A stretch of 64,000 bases of DNA from Neelides folsomi (Eukaryota > Arthropoda > Collembola > Neelipleona > Neelidae). Positions 25,301 through 59,849 of this stretch are shown here, piece by piece. The stretch is taken from assembly GCA_034687125.1 (NCBI GenBank), contig JAQGBZ010000083.1, forward strand, positions 1 through 64,000, given 5' to 3'. Positions within the stretch are counted from its first letter, which is position 1; each line of letters starts with the position of its first letter. The position numbers were made by a program, and so were the translations under genes. The notes beneath the pieces were generated by a model. The model worked only from the letters and a program-made list of their open reading frames with translations. It was not told the origin of the DNA and searched no databases.

Positions 25301-28300
25301 GGAAGCCAGAGTGAATCTGATCATGGCCTTAAAGCCTCAATAGGGGAAAAGGATTCGCCCAAAGAAAAAAGACTCACATTTTGATTGAGGATTACGAAAG
25401 GCATTGAAATGACGATTTTTTATCTTCATCTCTTTAACATTTTTTTTGTAAAAAATATCCCCATTTAAAAATACAGTAGTTGGGAGTTAATAAATTCATG
25501 TTTATGGAAAAGATAAAAAAATTCACAACGCACGCGACATTTTTGAGAAATTAAAATAATCTCCAACATGAATATATTTTCAGTGACAATGTCAAATTCC
25601 CGCAGTGGAATCAAACGATCTTTAGTTTGAAGATAGGGGGGAAATTTTTATCTTTTTTATGTTTCTCGTAATTTCTCTATTACCTCAGATGGGTGGCTTA
25701 ATTTATTCCATCTTCTCCCTATCGTTAAAGAGTCGAAAAACTCGTAATGGGATTTTATATGCCAACACATCGTCTTGAGGATCTTTTTATCAGGGAGTCG
25801 AATTGTACTCTTGCAGTGGAATAGAAGATCAGCTAAGGAACAAACGACGCAGCAGTGCGGGGATCGTTATATTCTGAATCTAATGAAACGTCGTTTATAG
25901 CCTCCACTCTTTCCACGCTGCGAAACAGAGAGAGGAGAATGAAGAAATCCTTTAACTTATTCTTTTTTATGGTGAATTTGAATAGGAAGTACTGCGGGTT
26001 GCCAGGAGCTGAAGGCTGGGACGATCTTTTTGGTTCCATGAACAACATCACTGTGAAGAGATATGCCCAAATCTACGTCCACCCTCAAGACATCGACCTT
26101 TGGTCCGGCGGAGTGTCCGAGCGACCGTTGCCCGGCGCTATGGTCGGCCCCACATTTGCTTGCATCATTGCCTCCCAGTTTTCCAATGCCCGCCGTGGAG
26201 ATCGGTTTTGGTACGAGTTGGGCGGACTTCCGCACTCTTTCTCTCACGAACAGCTGAGTGAATTGAGGAAGGCCCGACTCGCCCGTATTGTCTGTGACAA
26301 TACTGATATCATCGACACGATTCAACTCTACCCAATGGTCCTTCCTGATCATGAGATGTAAAAACCGTTTGTTCAATTGGCTTTTATCCCTATGACCGTA
26401 TTTTCTAATTCTTATCTCTTGCAGCAATCCTCGAGTTCCATGTCGATCAGGTGTTCTTCTCCAGATTGACTTGAGTAAATGGGCCGACTATGGGGGACAA
26501 TATACTCATCAAAACCCCGTCCATGTAAGTATAACCTGATCTTTACCTTTACATCGCTCCTTTTCAGATATGCATAATTATTGTTTATTCTCTACGAATC
26601 AGATCACAAGAAAGTCTTTCGTTGATCGATTTAAATAATATTTCATATACAAGGTAGAGAGATAAAGATAATATCATTTATATAATAAATATCTTTTATG
26701 TACATACATAAATACCAAACAAAATGTTCAATATAAATTCTTTTATTAATACAAAGCTGTACAAAGAAAAGCTGATCTAAATTGAACATTTGCATATACA
26801 GATAATATAATATACTTCACAATTAATAAAGGGTTGTTTACAACTTGTCAAAATGGAAATTGACGAATCAAAAGAAGGCCATGCCATATGTCAAATATTG
26901 ACAAAGAAAACAATGAAACTGGTACTGTACAGTGCTTTCAACTTAAAATTCTGGGCCATGATATACCATAATATGTAAAAAATGTGAATTATGTGAGAGC
27001 TTTTAAACGCAATATGATTTCAGATGAAGTCGAAAGTGAAAGCTTGTGTAAAAAAATACCAAAAAATGATATTGTAAATAACAAATAGGAAGAACTTCTA
27101 ACTTTTATTTCCATCAAATGTCTAGACATTTGCAGTTTAAAATGAAAAATTGGGTTTTTGTCAGTTATAGAAAAACAATAGTTGTGTGTCAAGTTACGTA
27201 AGAACCCCGAAAAGTATAGTAGTTATTCATTAAGCGTAAAATTGATCCTTTATGATGAGGCACGTTACGTAGTAATTCAAATTAGTCAAATAATTCAAAG
27301 ATTGATCATGAAATTTTAGGATGTTTTTTCTCTCTTTGAGACTTCGAAATCTCACAGTGGAAGATAAAAACGGAGATGAAGAGAAAAATATCTCTGCTCA
27401 ATTGGATTCGGTGCTATAAAGGCATTAAAAGAATTGCATAATAAGACTTGAGCTTATTTGAGGACAATAGTCCATGGAGTGAGGGAACAATGGGAAGGTA
27501 AGGAGCATAAAAGATTTGGACGTAGTTGAACACATACGTGATGGTTAGATAGAATGACATCAAACTTTCAACTCTTCCCATTTTCCCTCCTCCCTACGAC
27601 GATGCTCGGACAAGGAATTATTAAGAAGGAATTACAGAACTTTATTACCTCATAACACTCATAAGTGTACTTACTCTTCATTTTGATTAGGTATAATTAT
27701 TTATCAAAGAACGCGCATTTTCACTCTGTCTCTTTCAATTAATGAGCGTTTAAGCCTCATGGGAGCGACAGATTAATTTAGTAATAGTTATTGCTAGGAA
27801 TTTAGGACTTGATAATACCGCTCACTGGGAGACCCATTTTATTCTCTAACAATTGAGCAATGGCCCTTATTGCTTGCTCTTATGGCGTAGGAACAAAAGT
27901 AACATGGAGTTTTATTTGGAAAGACACTTTGTCAAGGCCGTTGTCATTTCTCAAAAACCACTTGAGACACTTCAACAATAGATTTAAACTTTTAAGAAAA
28001 CAATTATTTGGATTGTTTACATAATAATACAAGCAAGCAATACAGTTACAAAATAATATGTATGAGAATAAGTTTGGTTATATTTGTAATTTTTGTAGAA
28101 AATATTAAGCTTGATAATAATGGACCATGGAATTGATGGAATTGTATAAAAGAATGTATATGACGAATGTATAGGTGCCAGCTCCGCATGGAGGTCTTCC
28201 ACCTCCTCAAGCTCCTTCATCCCGATTGATTCCTGAAACGGTTGTGGCCAATTTGCTCCCTAACCATCATCAAGGGCTTAGTTCGAATCGGGTCGTGAGG

Positions 28301-32242: not shown

Positions 32243-33546
32243 AACAACAACACACAAAAGCAACACCAACACCTAATAATAACGACTACAATCCACAACA
32301 CACAACAAAGCAAATATCTACATGCTATTATTTTTGCAAGAAAAATTTAGAAAATTATATCGAGAAAAATATTTAATTTAATTTTATATAGTAAAATGAG
32401 CCAAATTAGTCTCACGTATTTTTATTACATTTTTCTTGGATTTGTTTTTAATTAAAAATTAAATCTATTGTGCTGAGTCTTGCCAAAATATTGCAAGGGT
32501 AGTCAGAAATATTTACATATTTAATAACACATAATTCTACATAAGTATTCTATCAAAATTACATAAACTTTCATTAATCACTTTTGCATTTTTGTAAAAT
32601 GGACATTTGAAAGAAGATGATAGTGAGCAACTTATAAATGCTAAGTATTTTGCGATTAAAAACCTTACAAAGCTAAACTATTGTAAAAAGGGAATCTATA
32701 GCTTGTTAAATCTTTAGACCATTCTATACTTACTTTTATAATATCAGTACATACATTACTGAGTGCCATGTCGATTAATTTAATAGAAAAAATGAAGCAA
32801 CGCAAAGTTGGGAAAAGACGATCAAACGATGATTGGATCTATCAATATTAAATACTTAGCTTTTATACACAATTCTTATAAAAAAACACACACATTTAAT
32901 TGGGTTAAATGAATAAACATAAAGATATATTTCTTTTATATAAATAATCCAAATGCCTTCTCTTTCTCCGAAGAGCTCTGCTGCAAAATAAATTCTCATT
33001 TGCCTCAAGGAACCTTTCAATTCCGGGTGTCTTCCACTTTCCAAGACGAGTCGAATGACCCTCTAAATATTGATTTGCATGGCATGGCATTTTCATCTTG
33101 CTTTCTCTGTCTCTGTCTCACTCAATTTCCACCGCCGTCTCATCAGCCGGTCCATTAAGGAACCTGGAAAATTGCCAATTAGGTGAAATGAAATTTTTGA
33201 GTGTTTGTGTACATTTCTTCCGGTCCTCTGGCTCCAGTTGTAGCCAAAGTTTCCTCAACGCAACGGCGTGGTAATTGAGGAAGGTGAGATCTAATGAACG
33301 GGACCGCCTTCATTTAAATAATTTACACTTTTGCTCTCTTTCTCTGATTGTCTATCAGCTCTTTTCTCATCATTTCAGCAGCATCCTCAATCCTCGTCTT
33401 CGAAGGTCGATGAGGAAGATTTCTCTTGTTGGCGGCGCCTTCTCTTTTCTTTCCTACTAACACCAAACTATCAAAATCTATTTAACCACATACATTTTTA
33501 CTGATGAAAGTGAAACATCGCACCATTTCAAACTACATAAATATTT
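32243..33546. other. Intergenic, no gene seen
   Basis: AT-rich at first, becoming more mixed near 33000. Minus-strand frames near 32856-33096 have no supporting features. Includes the presumed promoter and 5'UTR of the next gene. Confidence 0.7.
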
Positions 33547-33897
33547 ATGTACCACAACATCAGAAATCCGTCCTTCCTCTTCGCTATTATACTTTTTTCT
33601 TATTCTTTTTTCCAATCTTGTTCAGCAGGAGGGGTAAGACATACAGGTGGTCCATTAGGTGACCTCTCCGTCTCGAGTCACTACTCAGGTGGCCGAGGTT
33701 ATGGAGCTCCCTCACTGCTCCATTTCTCTGGGTCGCTCTCACTCCACTACGGGTTTAAGCCCGTGTCCTCCCCTTATGGCAACATCACTGGGTATGGAAC
33801 TCCTTTCCGCCGCTACGGAACCGAAGTTCCTGAAACGGTCTTCCATGAATTGAACACCGTTCGGGAGAGCGGGTACAAAAAGCGAGAAATCACTCCA
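33547..33897 (+). CDS. Secreted protein exon 1
   Basis: Residues 1-117: signal peptide and Gly/Ser/Tyr-rich region (SSHYSGGRGYGAPS, YGNITGYGTPFRRYG). The frame runs past the donor to 33954, but phase and composition favour splicing at GTAAGA. Confidence 0.75.
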
Positions 33898-35106
33898 GTA
33901 AGATTGCATTTCAAAAAATTCGACTTTCTTCTCATGACACGAACCCGACCTTAAAGATCGTAATAATGTGTTTATGCATGTTGAAACACATTGTGATTTG
34001 CATACAATGAGATAATTTATTTTTAATGGACAAAAAACTATACAAAACTATTATTTTGTAGTTGTGACTTGTAGTCGTAGTTGGTTGCATGGTTTGTAAA
34101 AGTAGTCTTATGATTTGTAGGTTCTAACAAAGATTAAAGGTGTAGTTTAAATATTCGTAGTTATACTTTTACATGGAACAAACAGTATTTATGATAATTT
34201 AACTTATTTTTGACTATCATGGACAAAATACACCCGTCTTTCTAATGAATGTAAATTATTAACAATTAATTACAAACTTCTTAAGCTTTTGTAAATGCAA
34301 CAAACTTGACAAAACCTGGACTGACATTGAGATGGCAAAGCTCCTCAAAATTTTGTAAATAATTTGACAAATTGTGTGAAATCCCCAAATCCCTTTGTGA
34401 CTTGTAATTGAAAAATTTTGGATTCTTTTTATTTCAAAATCTTGACATAAGTAAATGTAATTTTTCTCTTTCCGTCTGACTTTAGATTATTGACGAAGAT
34501 AAAGTAGGGGAAGATGTAGAGATAAATGAGAGTGGCGAGAGGATTTTGGTTCCCTTGCAAAGACCGAAAAGAGGAGTAGCCGGACAAGAAGAGACTCAAC
34601 TACAGCCAAACGATCAGGACAAATTGATTAACGAGACAGTGAGGAATTCGACAATTGACCGTGACCGCGAGACAACTTTACATTTAATCGCCAGCATGCA
34701 GGAGGCATTTGTCTCCACCGCTCTTGACTTGATGACCAACATAGCTGATATGAGCCAAGAGTTGATGATGAGACTGAGAAATACTCTAATGTCATCAGAG
34801 GTGATCGAGAAGCCGCTCAACTCCACCACCACAACGACCAACTCGACGTCCCAAGAACCAAATAATTCCACAGTCAATGAATTGGAGTCGACACTTGGAG
34901 AAGAAGGAAAAATTGAATCGTCGTCCCAGAGTAGCAGTAATAGTAATCATAGTCATTTTAATAGGAACGCTACAAAGTCCCCCAAAGTTAAACCAATCCA
35001 AACTGAAGAACTTGTGCGGAAAACTTCCTCATTTGTTCGGAATATCCTGAAGGACATCAGTAAGAATCTTAACAAAAGATTAAATGATTCCTATTCTTCC
35101 TCGTAG
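33547..35106 (+). CDS. Secreted N-glycan-rich protein, unknown family
   Basis: Two exons, 33547-33897 and 34486-35106, join in phase 0 (CCA|GTAAGA ... CTTTAG|ATT) into 323 aa. Residues 1 to about 27 form a signal peptide with a strongly hydrophobic core (FLFAIILFSYSFF). Residues 28-117 are Gly/Ser/Tyr-rich. Exon 2 has an acidic stretch, then a furin-like RPKR at 143-146, a long amphipathic segment (DRETTLHLIASMQEAF and on), and a Ser/Asn/Thr-rich region with many N-glycosylation sequons (NETV, NSTI, NSTT, NSTS, NATK, NDSY among them). A second helical segment ends the protein. It may be processed to a C-terminal product starting GVAGQEE. I recognise no family. It lies 1.3 kb downstream of the peroxidase tail exons on the same strand. 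A good ATTAAA lies 74 nt after the stop. Confidence 0.75.
34486..35106 (+). CDS. Secreted protein exon 2
   Basis: Residues 118-323 and stop: acidic linker, RPKR cleavage candidate, amphipathic helix, sequon-rich region, C-terminal basic helix ending NDSYSSS. The 588-nt intron before it holds nothing recognisable. Confidence 0.78.
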   Translation: MIDEDKVGEDVEINESGERILVPLQRPKRGVAGQEETQLQPNDQDKLINETVRNSTIDRDRETTLHLIASMQEAFVSTALDLMTNIADMSQELMMRLRNTLMSSEVIEKPLNSTTTTTNSTSQEPNNSTVNELESTLGEEGKIESSSQSSSNSNHSHFNRNATKSPKVKPIQTEELVRKTSSFVRNILKDISKNLNKRLNDSYSSS

Positions 35107-35185: not shown

Positions 35186-36214
35186 GATTACTTTTACATT
35201 TTGTGGTTCTTGTACTTTTTGTTGAAAGTTTTAAGAATATAAAAATCATTTATGTAAACGAACTTGCTGTTGTTCGGCTGTTCGGGAAAAGTTTATTTTG
35301 AATATTTTAAGATATATGAAATTGTCTGACGAAAGTTCAAGTTACGAGAAACGAGAATGCGGCTTATGTTCTCTTCAATTGCTCTGATATCCTTCTGAAA
35401 CTTGAAAATATTTGAGGCGATCAACTTTTCCGAGTTTGGCTTTAATGAGCGTCATTTTGGGTAGTTAGAAAGTTTTTGAATGAAAATACTTATTCTAAAA
35501 TTCTCCTTCTTAAACCTAATCATTTACAAATGCTGTAGTTGAATTTCTCCTTGTGTAGGTTTGTATGCAGAAACTATTATTGTTGACGCGGACAGTTGAG
35601 ATTCCTTTGCTGACGCGTTTTTGTTATCATTGTGCCCAAATATTTTAATTAATGTATACATTTAAGAGAATAATAATTATAATTTAATTTTTAAGTAAAT
35701 GTTAAAAATAAGAAGATCAATAAGCTCTTCTTTATCTAAAGTACTTTAGAGTAATTTTACCTATATTATTTCCATTTACAACAATTTATCTTGCGTATTA
35801 TTAAACACGTTTTTACAGTAGATAGCAATCCCGAATTTGCCATAAAGTCGTTTTCTAAATAGTTAATTAAAATAAGAAGTTATTTTTATACAGTAATTAT
35901 TTCAATCGTTTGTATTAAAGTATAAGATTTTAATAAAAAAACATGTTAATAAATAAAACGAATTTTAATTGAATCACATTTTAATTATTTATCCGCTCCT
36001 TGAAATCTTACCAATTAAGAGTTAAACTGTTAGTTTTTTAATTAAAATTATCAAAATTATTTTCTTAGGGTATGAGCTAATTGAATTTCAACAAGGCATC
36101 TGTTTTTTGGTCGGATGAGCAATTTTGGAGCTGAAATTAAAAGGAAATCACCAGCGTCATTACTAAATTAGCAGTCTAAGGGTCCCGCATGTGTCAAATC
36201 TTTTTTGCCCTTCT
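35186..36214. other. Intergenic, no gene seen
   Basis: AT-rich spacer between the secreted-protein gene and the first eclosion hormone gene. No frames of note. Confidence 0.75.
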
Positions 36215-36225
36215 TATATAAATAG
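36215..36225 (+). promoter_or_regulatory. TATA box of eclosion hormone gene A
   Basis: TATATAAATAG about 118 nt before the start codon. It places transcription start near 36245 and gives a 5'UTR of roughly 90 nt with no upstream ATG that interferes in frame. Confidence 0.65.
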
Positions 36226-36332
36226 GGGAGAGAGGAGAGATGAAAATCACATCTTTCAAACTTCTCCTTTTCCAAATTACAACTTAAATCTTTGTTTCGA
36301 CAAGAAGTAAAATAGCGAGAAAAGTTGAGAAA

Positions 36333-36424
36333 ATGGGTTTTCTCCTCAAGTTTCTCTCCCTCTCAATCTTCATTGCAATTACGGTCTCTCTACCTCTGGC
36401 TGAAGGGAACCCCACTTGCATTGT
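36333..36424 (+). CDS. Eclosion hormone A exon 1
   Basis: Signal peptide and the first Cys (PTCI plus two bases of Val). The start is the first ATG after the predicted TATA-driven start. Confidence 0.88.
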
Positions 36425-36676
36425 GTAAGTTAACAGATATGTTCTTCATTCAAAGGCATCTAATTAAAAGATATGAGACAGATTACTCTGGACCATTATT
36501 TGAGGAAATAATACACAAAGTTATGATTATTTAGGAATTGTGCACAATGCGTCAAAATTTATGGGGACTTCTTCGACGGCCATTCTTGTGCGGAAATGTG
36601 TCTGAAGTCGTATTTGGACTCTCACGTCGACTGCGCCGACCCAACAACGATAACAAGATTCATCAAATACAAATGA
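36333..36676 (+). CDS. Eh: Eclosion hormone, gene A
   Basis: Two exons, 36333-36424 and 36535-36676, encode 77 aa; the intron is GTAAGT ... TTTAG, phase 2, inside codon 31. Residues 1 to about 25 are a signal peptide (GFLLKFLSLSIFIAI core). The mature peptide has six cysteines at 29, 33, 36, 49, 53 and 64, that is C-x3-C-x2-C-x12-C-x3-C-x10-C, the eclosion hormone spacing. NCAQC, IYGDFFDGHSCAEMC are family signature stretches. Eclosion hormone is a neuropeptide that triggers ecdysis through a receptor guanylate cyclase on endocrine cells. After the fifth Cys the sequence departs from the family: KSYLDSHVDCADPTTITRF replaces the usual Lys/Gly-rich, Ile-Pro-x-Cys and Ser-Ile segment, and the C-terminus is basic (FIKYK). 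A second copy faces it 612 bp downstream. Confidence 0.92.
36535..36676 (+). CDS. Eclosion hormone A exon 2
   Basis: Residues 31-77 with five of the six cysteines and the stop TGA. Acceptor TTATTTAG. Confidence 0.92.
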
Positions 36677-37046
36677 TTCTTTTTTAAAAACTTTTAGTCA
36701 TTTTGAGAATATTGCTATCATTAGTGAATGGCAGAAACATGTTTAGAGTTTCAATTTTAGACTGCTAGGCTCCCTTTTATTATTTGGATTGTATTTTGTA
36801 GTAGCAAATCAATTGTAATATGAGTCCTTCCAAAACTTTATCTTGAATTTATAATTGAATGAAATTATGAAATATTTGATAAGGAATTTTCATTCACGCT
36901 CTCTAACTACCTAGCCAGTCCAGAATATAACATATCTAATTAACGCATATTTGTAAACTTATTATTCTAATTATTTATTGTATGCTTATTTGCTTATTCA
37001 TATCATGTTCAAAATTTTGAATAATTATATTAAATTGGTACTCTGA

Positions 37047-37052
37047 AATAAA
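37047..37052 (+). terminator. Poly(A) signal, hormone gene A
   Basis: AATAAA 371 nt after the stop; an ATTAAA at 37029 is an alternative. Confidence 0.4.
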
Positions 37053-37137
37053 CGTATTGAATTGTTTTATTCAAATAGTAAATCACAAATCAGAACCGTT
37101 TACACATCAAATAAGCATTGATTAAAATTAATTGTGG

Positions 37138-37148
37138 TTTATTTTATT
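37138..37148 (-). terminator. Poly(A) signals, hormone gene B
   Basis: Two overlapping AATAAA copies on the minus strand, about 140-150 nt after the stop of gene B. Confidence 0.45.
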
Positions 37149-37288
37149 TACATAAATATCAAGAGAAATAGAAAATGCCATAAACATATTACATAAATAG
37201 TAATAAATATTTATATACAAACTTCATATGCATTTAACCATAAATAATTTCAAAGATACATAAATATTCATTAGCAGTTAACTTACAT

Positions 37289-37546
37289 TTAGTCAAGCTT
37301 AGATAGAAAATCCCCAATAGAATAAAGATCATGGCAATCGGGAATGAATCTCCCCTTTTTCTGTATGCAAAAGTCAGCACATCTTCTCCCGTCGAAATAA
37401 TCTCCGTAGATTCTCTTGCATTCTCCACAATTGTTGAGACAGATCTTTACACTGCTGGCCCATGAGATCCTATTAGACAGCATCATTTGACCCTTGGTGG
37501 TGCATAGGAATATTAACATTGCCACAATGATGTTCAAAGATTTCAT
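37289..37546 (-). CDS. Eh: Eclosion hormone, gene B
   Basis: Single uninterrupted frame of 85 aa on the minus strand. Residues 1 to about 19 are a signal peptide (SLNIIVAMLIFLCTT). Cysteines at 36, 40, 43, 56, 60 and 71 repeat exactly the C-x3-C-x2-C-x12-C-x3-C-x10-C pattern. Signature stretches are NNCGECKRIYGDYFDG and RRCADFC, followed by KKGRFIPDCHDLYSIGDFL, which matches the family C-terminus far better than gene A does. This is therefore the more canonical eclosion hormone of the pair. It has no intron at the position where gene A has one. It is encoded tail to tail with gene A. The role is as a secreted ecdysis-triggering neuropeptide, by family. Confidence 0.93.
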   Translation of the reverse strand: MKSLNIIVAMLIFLCTTKGQMMLSNRISWASSVKICLNNCGECKRIYGDYFDGRRCADFCIQKKGRFIPDCHDLYSIGDFLSKLD

Positions 37547-37953
37547 CTTCAGGATTCAATTGAAGCAAATAGAGGTTAAAAACCTTTAGAATAGACGCAA
37601 ATATTACAGTTAATTAAAACATCACAGTTTTATTCATGCACTTAAAAATCAAAGGCTAGAATTAAAATTTGCAATTGTAATTTTATACTCTACAAATTAA
37701 ATTAGCAATTTATGTTTTCATTATTAAGAAAATGAAAGAATGCTTTCAAGTACCTTATTTAAGTGAGAAGAGAAACGCAGAGTTGATTTCAATTTACAAC
37801 TGGCATTAAATAAGTGTTAATTCTCAATTTGAACCGAATAGGAAATTAGCGCTCAAAACTTGACTTTTCCCTTTTAAACGTTCTCTATTGACTCGGAAGA
37901 GCGGAGGTGAGAAGTGAAACGATAAATAATTGTATTCTTCTTCCTCTCACCTC

Positions 37954-37962
37954 ATTTATATA
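37954..37962 (-). promoter_or_regulatory. Possible TATA box of hormone gene B
   Basis: TATATAAAT on the minus strand about 410 nt before the start codon. If used, the leader is about 380 nt or contains an intron that I could not place. A weaker TAAATAAG near 37755 is an alternative. Confidence 0.3.
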
Positions 37963-38667
37963 TGCAGAGCCTTTTCATTGAGACGCGAAGAAGGTCCAAT
38001 TGACTCGCATTTATAGACATATTTCATTGTTTGGCTCTCCCGCATCTCTTCCGCGACCACCCTCATTTCCCAAGCCATGAATGAAGATTATAAGGTTCGA
38101 TTGAGTCCATTTATGGATCCATCAAGAGACGACGATTCCGCTTTGTCTCTCTTCCCCTCGCTTTATTACAGAGCCATTGAGAGAGATGATGGGGAACGCT
38201 CATTCTTCTGACTCTCGAGAGAATACTTACACAGAACCTGCAGAATTGCATCAAAGGACCGGAATTGGAAATATTTGATCCAGCTCCGCAGCCAAGGCTT
38301 TTTTCCACTTCCTGGTGCCAATCAAGTTGGCTTTCAATATCGAGCAGAGGAATCTTCCCTTCGACTCTTAATCTTCATGCTAATACCCTCATCAATATGA
38401 AAATTGAAGATTGAGACCTCTTGAACAATGGGAAATGGGAATCAGAGAAATTTTAAAAATTCAAATTACCCTTTTAAATTTCCAAATATTCCTCGGGATA
38501 TTTCCCTTCGTTGCAGATTTGGCATTTCCTATTAGGGAAATGAACTTGGACCAAATTAAATATACCTCAAACTTGCCAAAAATCGTCGAATATCAACATT
38601 ATACTATACTACTCATATACCTTATGATATACTATAGTTAACAAGAGAAATTTATAGTGGATGAGGG

Positions 38668-54405: not shown

Positions 54406-56403
54406 TTTTGAGCAGAAGAGAGTCAAGCTTTTAAAAGGTCTGCTCAATACATACATACATCCCACGCACACAGAGAACTCGTCATCACATGAAGGGACTG
54501 AGAAAGCTTTTCAATAAATGAACACTCTCCTCGCATACCCATATTATTACCGAGCTGAAATTGTTCGAAAGCTTCCAAACTTACTCCGAATGCATTATCC
54601 AAAACTTTCCTATATATAATATTCACCAGATGAAAAAAATCTTTTCCAAAGAATTTACGTTGCTTGGAGATGTCCACAAGTATGGTAGAAGTAAGTAGTT
54701 GAATATGTTTCACCGTTGCGTGTTCCACCAAATACATAATGTTCTCCCTTCACATCCAGATGCAATAAGAACTTGTAATTGTTATTATTATTTGGAAAGG
54801 TCAATATTGGGAATGATCTTGTAATTGGATCTCAAGTTTTTGGCTGAGACACTCGAGGAGTTGAAAATGGAAGGAGAAGCGAAGAGGGCTCAATTACAGA
54901 ATCATCAACGGGACTAACAAGTCGGAAGTTGTGTTTGTTTAGACCTTGATTGCTCCCTTTTCCCTCCCATGTCGAGGTAATTTGAGCACCACTTTATCGA
55001 GTTTCCGCTCAAGAGCCAGGTCGGGTCAAACATCCACGTGGTTCACAATTGAGTGAGTTGCAGCTCGGAATTGAAAGGGATGATTCATGGCGTGGGAGAG
55101 AAAGACATAAACACTTTCACGCCTCTTTTCGACTTTTTGTATCGGAGGTTGGCTGGGAAGGTAAGTTCTCCTGCCAGGGAAAATAAAAGAAACAATCTTT
55201 CAGCTCCTTTCTCCATATTTTGACGTAAAAAACGGAGAAAACCTGTCTCAGACCGGAATTGAAGTTCCGGAATCTCATCAATGGAAGGAGGGGGTCTTTC
55301 TCTCGTCATCTTCCCAAAGATCACCCGCCCGTTTTGTGAATTTTAAAAGGTGATCCTTACAACGCTGTAGGCCCATATGGGAAAAGTTTGAGAGACTCTC
55401 GGCCCCGTGATTGTGTCTTTTATGGGAGATGGCCTCTCTCTTCCGCCGTTCCGGCCGAAGCTTCCTCCTCGTCAACGACTTTTCTATCTATTGAATAGAC
55501 TTGAGTGAGAATGGGCGTGTGAGAGAGGGGAAGAATCGCCTCCTTTTATTACTCCCTTTTATTACCACGAGACCAGAGGAAGAGTTGAGGAGAAAAATGG
55601 AACCTCCATGCTTTAAACACTTCTCGAGATGAGTGAAGAGAAATGTGGGCCGATTACATTCAACTTCCAAGATTAGAGATCCCTCGACTTATTGATTGCA
55701 AAACCCTCAAAGGACATCAAAAGGTGTATTGGATTCTCTTGTATAAATACATAAATACATTTTCCACCTTTATCTCTCCCGTATATTGACCCCCGAATAA
55801 ATTCATGTGAAACATACCTAGGTATACAAGTAAAGTCCAACCATGAAAGAATTTTATTTAGAAAATAAGGTGATATGAGAAATACTCAAATACAGCATGT
55901 ATATGAATGAGTATATCTGCGAGAAAGTGAAAGCATCTTTTTAAATAATAGTGACAGGAGAAATAACTGTATGAACTTTGTGAACATATTGGATATATTA
56001 CATATAGTAAAACGTATAATACTTATATTCCCCACATATAGTAAATTGTGGATCTTTCTCTTTGGAGCTGTGGAGTTGCGAGTGCGACGCTCCCACGGCG
56101 CACTCCCATCCAAGAGAGACTTGTAGGTGTAGAAGAAGAGTAGTTGGAACTTTGGGCCTCTCAGTTAACCGCATCTCCTCGACCTGTCGACAATGGTCCT
56201 CTTTCAACTCTCGAGCTTCAGGTGAATTCCTTTGACATAATTTGAGTGTGAGGCATTTGGATTGATCAATAAATTATTCCACTTATAGTTCATCATTTAT
56301 TTAATTCCTTTAATAACTATGTATTACTAGTATTTACATAAATTGTACTTATATACTTAATGTAGTTCGTTTATTTAACGTTCTTTTGTGTTTTTATTCC
56401 CAG

Positions 56404-56492
56404 GGTTGAAAAGCGGAAAGGAATGGTCAAATGGATTTTTAGAATGTGAGAAATTAAAGAAGAGTTTCACCTTCGGCCAAGTTTCCATCATA
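56404..56492 (+). other. Toll 5'UTR exon with acceptor
   Basis: A strong polypyrimidine tract and CCCAG at 56399-56403 mark a 3' splice site 89 nt before the Toll ATG, so the gene very likely has an upstream non-coding exon. This exon contains a short upstream ORF (56423-56449, eight codons and stop) out of frame with Toll. The Toll frame itself stays open through it but has no ATG. Confidence 0.6.
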
Positions 56493-59400
56493 ATGGGCCA
56501 AATAATATATTTTGTTTTCCTCCTCGCGGCCTTTGTGGCCCACACTGCCCAATCGGACTTTTGCAATCAAGTTGATTCGGAAACTGTCGAATGCGAGCTT
56601 CGCGTCTTGAATCCAAACATTGATCTTTTGAATCTAACTAGTCCATTTTCCTTCTCTTCGCTCCGCCTCTTGTGCAATGAAGTGATTTTGTTTGAAACAA
56701 GCATTAGTTCCTCCAATACTTTCGAGGGTCTTCCTTCCCTCTCTGACCTCAACATCCAAGGGTGCAAGTTGGGGCACATGGGGTCAGACACTTTCGCGGC
56801 GATTCCCCATCTACGAACCCTCACCCTCAACACGGGTCATTGGAAACGAGTGGAGTTGAGTGGGCGAGTGATCGGGAGACTCAAAGGGCTCCAGCGGTTA
56901 AATCTCTCCCAGAACCATTTGAAGGAACTTCCCCCGCTCCCTCCATCACTTAATTTTCTCAATTTGAGTCACAACGTCCTTCACCACCTGTCATTGACCG
57001 GAGCACCGAACCTGAAAGCCCTCGACCTCTCATCCAACCTCCTATCTGACCTCCAGATCGAGGGCCCGAAATTAGAGATCCTTGATCTCAGTTGGAATCT
57101 GTTGGAGACTCTCGAGTTCCTCTCATCCGCTCTTCCGCTCAAAGAACTCAACGGGAGTTGTAATCTTCTTACGGATGCGAGTAATCTCAAGGATCTTCCC
57201 CTCCTCCGCGTTCTCGACCTGAGAAACAACTCGCTTAGCAATTTGGTCCTCGAGGGACTCGGCCATTTGCAGACCCTTTCCCTTGGAGAGAACAAACTAG
57301 AAACAGTGAGGCTCGAAGGTCTCCTCCGTCTCGTCATTCTCGACTTGAGGGAAAATCGGCTCAGCACGGTCCCGCAGGGACTCGCCGAATTGTTCCAACT
57401 CCAAGTTTTGGATCTCAGCGGCAACCAACTATTAAATTTCGCAAATCTCCACCTCTCAAATCTCCATTCACTCAACTTGGGGAGGAATTTGGTTCAGAGC
57501 GTGGGAAATTTGAGTCTTGTCTCCCTCCACAAATTGAATCTCGACTACAACAACGTTTCAGCCATGTTCAATTTGTCAAATTGCACAAGTTTGCAAGATT
57601 TGGGTTTAGCAGGAAATGGACTTAAAAATGTGCCCCCGGCACTCCGTGACCTTACCCTTTTGAAATCTCTCGACCTGGGAGAAAATGAGCTTGAGACTCT
57701 GAGCGGAAAGGAATTTGAAGGCCTTGGACAATTATTTGGATTAAGATTAGTGGCCAATAAGCTCACAGCTCTCCCCACAGACTTATGCCAATTTATGCCA
57801 AAGATGCGGATTCTCAACGTGGGAGCCAACAAGTTGAAAAACGGCGGTGACCTGCGATCCTGCTTGGATCTTCGTGTTCTCCGTCTCGACTCTAACCAAC
57901 TTCATTCGGTCCCTGCCTTGAACCCACAGCTCCTCTGGCTCAACATCTCTAGTAACTTCTTGGAAGAACTCGACTTCAACCGCCTTGTTTCTCTTGAGTG
58001 GATCGACGTGAGTTGGAATCGAATCAAGGCCCTCTTCGGAGGAGACAAACAGCGAGAATACAAACTTCGAGTGCTTGACGCTTCCCACAACTCCCTCACT
58101 TCAATTTCCTCGTGGTCTCCTCCAGAGTCTCTCGAAGTCCTTCGATTGAGTAATAATCGGCTCGAGAAGGTTGAAAGTGACATTTTTTCCAATTGCGGCC
58201 GTCTCCGTCGTGTGGATCTCGTGGGGAATGAGCTTGAGAGCCTTTCGATCCGCCTCCCGCTTCTCGTTCCCCAGCCTGAATTCCTCATCGGCGGGAATCC
58301 TTTCCTCTGTGACTGTGCAATGGAGTGGCTTATGAGAAGTTCAGCCCTTCGGTTCTCAGTGTTGGACCTTGATTCGGTCATGTGCAAGGTCACTCACTCG
58401 CCCCAACGAATCATTCTCCCTCAAATGAGACCTCAAGATTTCCTCTGTCCTTATGAGTCTCACTGCTTTGCCCTGTGTCACTGTTGTGACTTTGCTGCTT
58501 GCGACTGCGAAATGACTTGTCCAGACAATTGTTCCTGCTATCACGATGACATGTGGACGACGAATCTCGTCCATTGCCAAGCCGGATCTCATACAGCAAT
58601 CCCGCACAACCTCCCCATGGACTCAACGGAGGTTCGACTGGATGGGAATGTAATCAGGGTATTGAAACCTCATGGGTTCATTGGGCGGAAGAATCTCAAA
58701 GTCTTGTACCTCAATGGGAGCAAAGTGGAGGGAATTAGCAACAAGTCGTTCAATGGTCTTGTGTCTCTCAATTCCCTCCATTTGAATGACAACCGACTAA
58801 CGAGGCTCCTCGGGTATGAATTTGTAGGCCTTACCCGCCTCGTTTCTTTGTTCCTTCAAGACAACCGCCTGGTGTCTATCAGCAATGTCACTTTCCTTCC
58901 GCTGAAGGCATTGGAAGTCCTGCGTCTGGATGGGAACTTCATTGTGGTGTACAACGTTTGGCAACTCAGCCTCAACCCATATTTGGTCGAGATCGGACTC
59001 GGGAGAAATCCCTGGCTCTGTGACTGTACGCTGCTCCAGAACCTTTATGGATGGCTTTCGGAGAATTCCAAAAAAGTCCTTGACTTCTCCGCCGTCCATT
59101 GCGTTTATAATGAGAGCGGGGCTATGACCAAAGGCCCGCACCTCATCGACTACAACATGACGTGCGTGGAGACGGATCAGTTTTTGTTCCAAATTCCGCG
59201 TCCAATTTGGCTCGGGTTGGCTGGTGCGATCCTCCTCATCTTTTTCGCCTTTCTCTCCCTCCTCTTCTATTACATCCTCGTTAAGCGAAGATTCATCCCG
59301 TTCTATGACGCCTACTTTGTCTACGCAGAAGGAGATGAAGACCTCGTGGTCAAAGGAGTGGCCGAGAATTTGAGGGAAACCTATCGTCTGTGCCTCCACC

Positions 59401-59849
59401 ACACAGATATTGACCTGTCGCGGGATCCGGTCAAGGCCGTTTGGGAAACTTTAGACAATTCAAAATCTCTCGTCATTTTTCTTTCGCATTCGTTTCTCTC
59501 GGACCCTCTGCTCCGTTCACTTTTCAAGGGTGGGAAAGGACGAAGGCGAATCATCGTCCTTCTCGAGGACGCTCTCGACGTTCCTAAACGCCGCGATGAG
59601 CGATGGATTTCCTTTGGGCAAAAGGGATTTTGGGCCCATTTGAAAGACGCTCTTCCTGATCCGCATTACAACGCGAGCACCACGACGACCAATTCCTCAA
59701 AGAGCATTTCCCCTCTGCCAGACGAGCGACGAGTGCGGAGGGAAGAAGAAGAGGAAGAACATGTTTACTCAACAATTCGTCTGAGCCCCACGAGCAGCCA
59801 CCCGATCCTATTCCCCCACAAAGGCAATTCTCACACTTACCTTGTGTGA
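56493..59849 (+). CDS. Toll receptor, Toll-6/Tollo/18w class
   Basis: Single-exon 1118-aa type I membrane receptor. The start at 56493 gives a signal peptide (GQIIYFVFLLAAFVAHTAQS); the open frame 35 codons upstream crosses an acceptor and is not used. Residues about 40-600 hold about 20 leucine-rich repeats. A first LRRCT (NPFLCDCAMEWL) covers about 602-650, then the cysteine cluster SHCFALCHCCDFAACDCEMT plus CPDNCSCYHDDMW at about 656-690, which is diagnostic of the multiple-cysteine-cluster Tolls. About five more LRRs precede a second LRRCT (NPWLCDC, about 839-890). A transmembrane helix lies at about 904-930. The cytoplasmic TIR runs from YDAYFVYAEGDED (box 1, 938) through LCLHHTDIDLSRDP (box 2, 966-979) to FW (box 3, 1046-1047). 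A tail ends NSHTYLV. Long Tolls of this class are usually intronless in coding sequence and 1300-1500 aa; this one is shorter. The TIR is compact and lacks the usual Trp-Cys and Glu after the SxSFL segment. The family acts in epithelial patterning and immune signalling. Confidence 0.94.
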   Translation: MGQIIYFVFLLAAFVAHTAQSDFCNQVDSETVECELRVLNPNIDLLNLTSPFSFSSLRLLCNEVILFETSISSSNTFEGLPSLSDLNIQGCKLGHMGSDTFAAIPHLRTLTLNTGHWKRVELSGRVIGRLKGLQRLNLSQNHLKELPPLPPSLNFLNLSHNVLHHLSLTGAPNLKALDLSSNLLSDLQIEGPKLEILDLSWNLLETLEFLSSALPLKELNGSCNLLTDASNLKDLPLLRVLDLRNNSLSNLVLEGLGHLQTLSLGENKLETVRLEGLLRLVILDLRENRLSTVPQGLAELFQLQVLDLSGNQLLNFANLHLSNLHSLNLGRNLVQSVGNLSLVSLHKLNLDYNNVSAMFNLSNCTSLQDLGLAGNGLKNVPPALRDLTLLKSLDLGENELETLSGKEFEGLGQLFGLRLVANKLTALPTDLCQFMPKMRILNVGANKLKNGGDLRSCLDLRVLRLDSNQLHSVPALNPQLLWLNISSNFLEELDFNRLVSLEWIDVSWNRIKALFGGDKQREYKLRVLDASHNSLTSISSWSPPESLEVLRLSNNRLEKVESDIFSNCGRLRRVDLVGNELESLSIRLPLLVPQPEFLIGGNPFLCDCAMEWLMRSSALRFSVLDLDSVMCKVTHSPQRIILPQMRPQDFLCPYESHCFALCHCCDFAACDCEMTCPDNCSCYHDDMWTTNLVHCQAGSHTAIPHNLPMDSTEVRLDGNVIRVLKPHGFIGRKNLKVLYLNGSKVEGISNKSFNGLVSLNSLHLNDNRLTRLLGYEFVGLTRLVSLFLQDNRLVSISNVTFLPLKALEVLRLDGNFIVVYNVWQLSLNPYLVEIGLGRNPWLCDCTLLQNLYGWLSENSKKVLDFSAVHCVYNESGAMTKGPHLIDYNMTCVETDQFLFQIPRPIWLGLAGAILLIFFAFLSLLFYYILVKRRFIPFYDAYFVYAEGDEDLVVKGVAENLRETYRLCLHHTDIDLSRDPVKAVWETLDNSKSLVIFLSHSFLSDPLLRSLFKGGKGRRRIIVLLEDALDVPKRRDERWISFGQKGFWAHLKDALPDPHYNASTTTTNSSKSISPLPDERRVRREEEEEEHVYSTIRLSPTSSHPILFPHKGNSHTYLV

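Follow-up and report, generated by a model that had tools for sequence, protein, structure and literature searches.

Two short genes on opposite strands, with start codons at positions 36333 (plus strand) and 37546 (minus strand) and stop codons that face each other, raise a double question: are both of them eclosion hormone genes, and how did two such genes come to lie side by side? The stretch analyzed (the window) covers the opening 64,000 bases of a contig 213,195 bases long; the assembly has 840 contigs and totals 75,104,828 bases. The best explanation overall, in which we have considerable confidence, is that the locus holds two genuine, long-diverged, convergent eclosion hormone genes: the minus copy is the canonical and conserved one, and the plus copy is a diverged second hormone.

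Two facing genes of one family

Membership in the family was assessed with the Pfam eclosion hormone model (PF04736; cut-off 25 bits) and with the arrangement of cysteines. The minus protein scores 84.3 bits (E 4.7e-24) and the spliced plus protein 51.7 bits (E 7.5e-14); exon 2 of the plus gene matches by itself with 47.4 bits (36533-36667). The cysteine spacing, C-x3-C-x2-C-x12-C-x3-C-x10-C, is identical in the two copies and common to the hormone of Macrobrachium rosenbergii too, which agrees with the sequence-only reading that both genes carry the six-cysteine pattern of eclosion hormones. Pfam scores and cysteine spacing together rule out chance open frames. Both proteins begin with a hydrophobic leader, as judged by eye. 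The same reading had placed the genes tail to tail, and that is how they lie (Table 1): the stop codons face each other 612 nt apart, and each gene passes the PF04736 cut-off. Their description as convergent paralogs is supported.

The unspliced frame of the plus gene hits a stop after 31 residues; the copy therefore reads as an eclosion hormone only when its 110-nt intron is removed, which yields a protein of 77 residues. The intron splits a codon two residues past the first cysteine; that cysteine is in exon 1, apart from the other five. When the window was scanned in six frames, the complete six-cysteine pattern appeared once, at the minus copy, and the last five cysteines appeared in two places, one per copy.

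Table 1. Features of the eclosion hormone locus, in window coordinates
Feature	Position	Strand	Basis
Candidate TATA box of the plus gene, TATATAAAT, 118 nt upstream of its start codon	36215..36223	+	putative promoter function
Plus gene, coding exon 1: contains the first cysteine and, by eye, a hydrophobic signal sequence	36333..36424	+	splice model
Plus gene, intron: 110 nt, phase 2, GTAAGT donor, TTTAG acceptor	36425..36534	+	splice model
Plus gene, coding exon 2: cysteines 2 to 6, C-terminal tail, stop codon	36535..36676	+	PF04736, cysteine spacing
Spacer between the facing stop codons, 612 nt	36677..37288	.	gene models
Four poly(A)-signal-like hexamers in the spacer	37029, 37047, 37121, 37202	+	putative functional use
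Four poly(A)-signal-like hexamers in the spacer	37148, 37071, 36979, 36781	-	putative functional use
Minus gene: single coding exon, 85 residues, six cysteines	37289..37546	-	PF04736, open frame
Candidate TATA box of the minus gene, TATATAAAT, 416 nt upstream of its start codon	37954..37962	-	putative promoter function

One way to understand the lower family score of the plus copy, together with its divergence in the loop preceding the last cysteine, is to suppose that this gene is decaying or silent. We regard this as improbable: the frame is open, the splice sites are consensus, all six cysteines are retained, and the tail is like that of the Macrobrachium hormone (5 of 12 residues alike). 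Another supposition starts from the coding intron, which only the plus copy has: the minus gene could have arisen by reverse transcription of a spliced eclosion hormone mRNA, as a retrocopy without introns inserted beside its parent. This too would be a long shot, as of the two genes the minus one is better conserved and has its own upstream TATA-like box, and a landing adjacent to the parent is unlikely to begin with.

The two genes appear to be the whole of the family in this assembly. A PF04736 search of all contigs gave two matches, the plus and minus copies, and a query with the protein of plus exon 2 (E up to 10) recovered the same pair, with the minus copy 42% identical; these searches proceeded exon by exon and scored the first-look candidates (two each), so that copies with very short exons, or in unassembled DNA, could escape them. 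Beyond the assembly, scanning with the minus protein produced 39 pattern matches among genome contigs of bacteria and archaea and 23 among viral contigs, none of them confirmed. A sequence search of the PDB with the minus protein returned a single unrelated match (E 0.32), and a search of NCBIfam returned no match for the plus protein and one weak, unrelated match for the minus protein. The predicted structure of the minus copy, the only one modeled, has three helices; the model was built on a two-row alignment and is uncertain (mean pLDDT 76.2 for the best model and 41.6 to 55.5 for the four others), and with it a search of solved structures in the PDB gave 7 matches, the best at E 6.8, and hence no similar fold.

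Age and origin of the pair

The sequence-only reading derived the pair from a local inverted duplication giving two paralogs. The paralogs stand, as members of the same family in convergent arrangement; a recent duplication does not. Compared between the first cysteine and the conserved phenylalanine, the copies are identical at 19 of 45 residues, 65 of 135 bases and, among third codon positions, 13 of 45; dS is not estimable. Ungapped repeat finding over 35800-38300 yielded 7 direct repeat families, along with 14 inverted pairs of up to 25 nt; none of the 14 joins one coding region to the other. Randomized-looking silent positions, the lack of a coding inverted repeat among these pairs, and an intron on one side only do not fit a recent inverted duplication, which is rejected on these grounds. 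An old duplication, local or otherwise, is still compatible with the data.

One perspective keeps the local event and moves it back in time, as an older version of the earlier proposal: a local inverted duplication specific to the lineage, after which the plus copy diverged fast and the minus copy lost the intron (or the plus copy gained it). The genes are adjacent, inverted and of the same family. Both contain IYGD[YF]FDG, a motif absent from the Drosophila, Manduca and Macrobrachium sequences. In Locusta, Danaus and mosquitoes the second gene is described as relatively recent, in the available part of one paper (PMC4237046). The weakly similar TATA regions, if the similarity is real, would mean that promoters were copied too. 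Against this scenario stand the third positions and the inestimable dS, the missing inverted link between coding regions, the one-copy intron, and a tree that prefers another grouping, albeit without rejecting sister copies. On balance, this account has somewhat less than an even chance of being right.

The promoter argument deserves separate weighing. The sequence TATATAAAT occurs nine times in the window (5 on the plus strand, 4 on the minus strand), so that the box alone is weak evidence, and transcription from the minus candidate would mean an extended 5' untranslated region that may contain an intron. One inverted pair (17 nt, 82%) does join the two TATA-like boxes. The local alignment score of the two regions, 18, was reached by 12 of 500 shuffles and by 19 of 838 other pairs of stretches from the window; judged by sequence similarity, a duplicated promoter for the two copies is suggestive at most.

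A second perspective supposes an ancient split: the minus copy would be an insect-type EH1 and the plus copy an EH2-type hormone, linked (with inversions) since before chelicerates and mandibulates parted. Placement was judged over 50 columns with five sequences: the two copies and the hormones of Macrobrachium, Drosophila and Manduca. The minus copy is closer to all three references than to its neighbor, both in identities (Drosophila 27/50, Manduca 24/49, Macrobrachium 23/50, plus copy 19/49) and in BLOSUM62 sums (159, 150, 144 and 108, respectively). The plus copy is nearer to Macrobrachium (23/49, sum 131) than to the minus copy (19/49, sum 108); its identities to Manduca and Drosophila are 20/49 and 19/49, and against the insects it sums to 98 and 100, below its figure with the minus copy, which speaks against the ancient split. 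The best tree joins the plus copy with Macrobrachium and the minus copy with the insect hormones (bootstrap 79, LG+G4, five sequences), and hints, on sequence grounds, at an older split of the two copies.

That hint has its limits. The tree with the copies as sisters is 2.5 to 4.3 log units worse over four models and is not rejected (AU p 0.078 to 0.189, with a program warning that replicates were too few). The whole tree signal is carried by the 14-column C-terminal tail; the 36-column cysteine core makes no choice among the three trees, and its nominal preference places the plus copy with the insects. The reference set consists of a single EH2-like sequence and two insect hormones, with no chelicerate, and the motif IYGD[YF]FDG, which among the five sequences is confined to the two copies, also counts against an ancient split. 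Partial texts of three published studies lend it some support: decapod eclosion hormone paralogs differ within a species and resemble their counterparts in others, and a loss of EH2 is stated for Drosophila (PMC4888303); the second gene is described as quite old in a termite, Tribolium, Nilaparvata and Diaphorina (PMC4237046); and lobster isoform 1 is most like planthopper EH2, and isoform 2 planthopper EH1 (PMC4018349). We hold the ancient split to be possible but doubtful.

A still stronger form would make the convergent pair a remnant of an eclosion hormone doublet that predates the chelicerate/mandibulate split and whose members have been neighbors ever since. This we consider rather unlikely; in such a remnant, shared regulation or abutting 3' ends may characterize the two hormones. 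With 14 columns and five sequences behind it, the idea that EH1 and EH2 have been linked since early arthropods is no more than a lead.

Action, molting pathway and genomic surroundings

Each of the two long-diverged genes would be expected to give a secreted peptide, some 50 to 66 residues long after cleavage at sites judged by eye, with three putative disulfides. By analogy with insects, the peptides would be made in neurosecretory cells; by analogy with insect eclosion hormone, each would then activate a receptor guanylate cyclase and raise cGMP in the molting circuit. The assembly offers material for such a receptor: at least 35 guanylate cyclase exon matches on at least 9 contigs, and at least 26 matches to ANF-type ligand-binding domains on at least 15 contigs. 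At least four contigs (C14, C46, C328 and C58) have a match of each kind, both on one strand and separated by 6 to 17 kb; candidate receptor guanylate cyclases therefore exist.

Other parts of the pathway give a mixed picture. Bursicon-alpha-like exons can be read by eye in translations of the assembly, and thus another part of the molting pathway is present; bursicon, including bursicon alpha, is reported absent in tardigrades, in a source available in part, which speaks against a tardigrade origin of the assembly. No exact coding match to the core of crustacean cardioactive peptide occurs in the assembly, a count from which a copy with an intron in the core or a changed residue could be hidden; the downstream circuit may therefore be unlike the insect one. 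For the house dust mite, the part of the paper available reports neither eclosion hormone nor crustacean cardioactive peptide (PMC12105342); were the present genome a mite's, eclosion hormone copy number would vary among mites, none against two.

Several further features of the window and the assembly were recorded. Upstream of the hormone pair (33541-35106, plus strand), a 137-residue open frame that seems by eye to begin with a hydrophobic leader and a second one of 206 residues have no Pfam match; they are possibly parts of a gene for a secreted protein. An animal heme peroxidase exon (PF03098, 143.3 bits) lies in an open frame at 25837-26361, plus strand. A Toll-like receptor candidate occupies 56379-59849, plus strand, as an open frame of 1,156 residues (stop to stop) with many leucine-rich repeats; its C-terminus is weakly TIR-like (TIR_2 22.6 bits, under the cut-off of 28).

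The mitochondrial contig (C742, 15,157 bases) has the ancestral arthropod order of protein genes, from translations read by eye. Pancrustaceans carry a leucine tRNA between cox1 and cox2; the gap between these genes here, also read by eye, is about 37 nt, too short for a normal tRNA, and on this reading would favor a chelicerate or a myriapod over a pancrustacean. Between nad1 and cob (L030 1713-2160) there are about 450 bases with no long open frame and with short repeated stretches. Intradiol dioxygenase (PF00775) is typical of spider mites; a search for it gave no match, which tells against a spider mite origin.

Paired eclosion hormones in other arthropods

Pairs of eclosion hormones are familiar from several arthropod lineages, as described in the portions available of the papers cited here. 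Most beetles have two genes for the hormone; many of their genomes carry both on a single contig, and all four orientations occur, tail to tail among them (PMC6585902). These pairs resemble the present locus in gene number, linkage and orientation; they belong to another lineage. Two genes are also reported in a termite and a locust (PMC4237046). The statement elsewhere that insects invariably have one eclosion hormone (PMC6158917) is contradicted by the beetle, termite and locust reports. The centipede Strigamia maritima likewise has two hormone genes, with two receptor guanylate cyclase genes as receptors (PMC4244043), as against the four candidate places found here. As to mites, no eclosion hormone pair was found in a partial view of the literature, exclusive of the spider mite survey of Veenstra and co-workers (2012).

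Among decapods, two eclosion hormones are reported in Sagmariasus, Carcinus and Litopenaeus (PMC4018349, PMC6158917, PMC11641175, PMC4888303). The two lobster hormones (Sagmariasus) share 47% identity (PMC4018349), and are thus about as diverged as the plus and minus copies (19/45). Six cysteines are stated for the Sagmariasus and Litopenaeus hormones (PMC4018349, PMC11641175), as in both copies here, and the numbering of cysteines given for LvEH I and II of Litopenaeus (PMC11641175) fits the spacing of both copies. The decapod EH1 and EH2 are known from transcripts and cDNA, and the available text is silent on linkage and orientation.

In Tribolium, the paralogs TcEH and TcEHL are reported to divide their roles, one acting in eclosion and the other influencing adult lifespan (PMC11650714); this is a paralog pair like the present one, known there from functional data. 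The Litopenaeus and Tribolium studies together describe two hormones that differ in role or expression (PMC11641175, PMC11650714), and by analogy with this shrimp and beetle work, different roles for the two hormones of the present locus are plausible.

The tail-to-tail pair of old eclosion hormone paralogs is, then, a new case of a known arrangement, and adds a small-genome example to the known paired eclosion hormones. A further implication would follow if orthology of the copies to EH1 and EH2 were true: the doublet could then be traced to the base of the arthropods, and one compact locus would serve to test the division of labor between its members.
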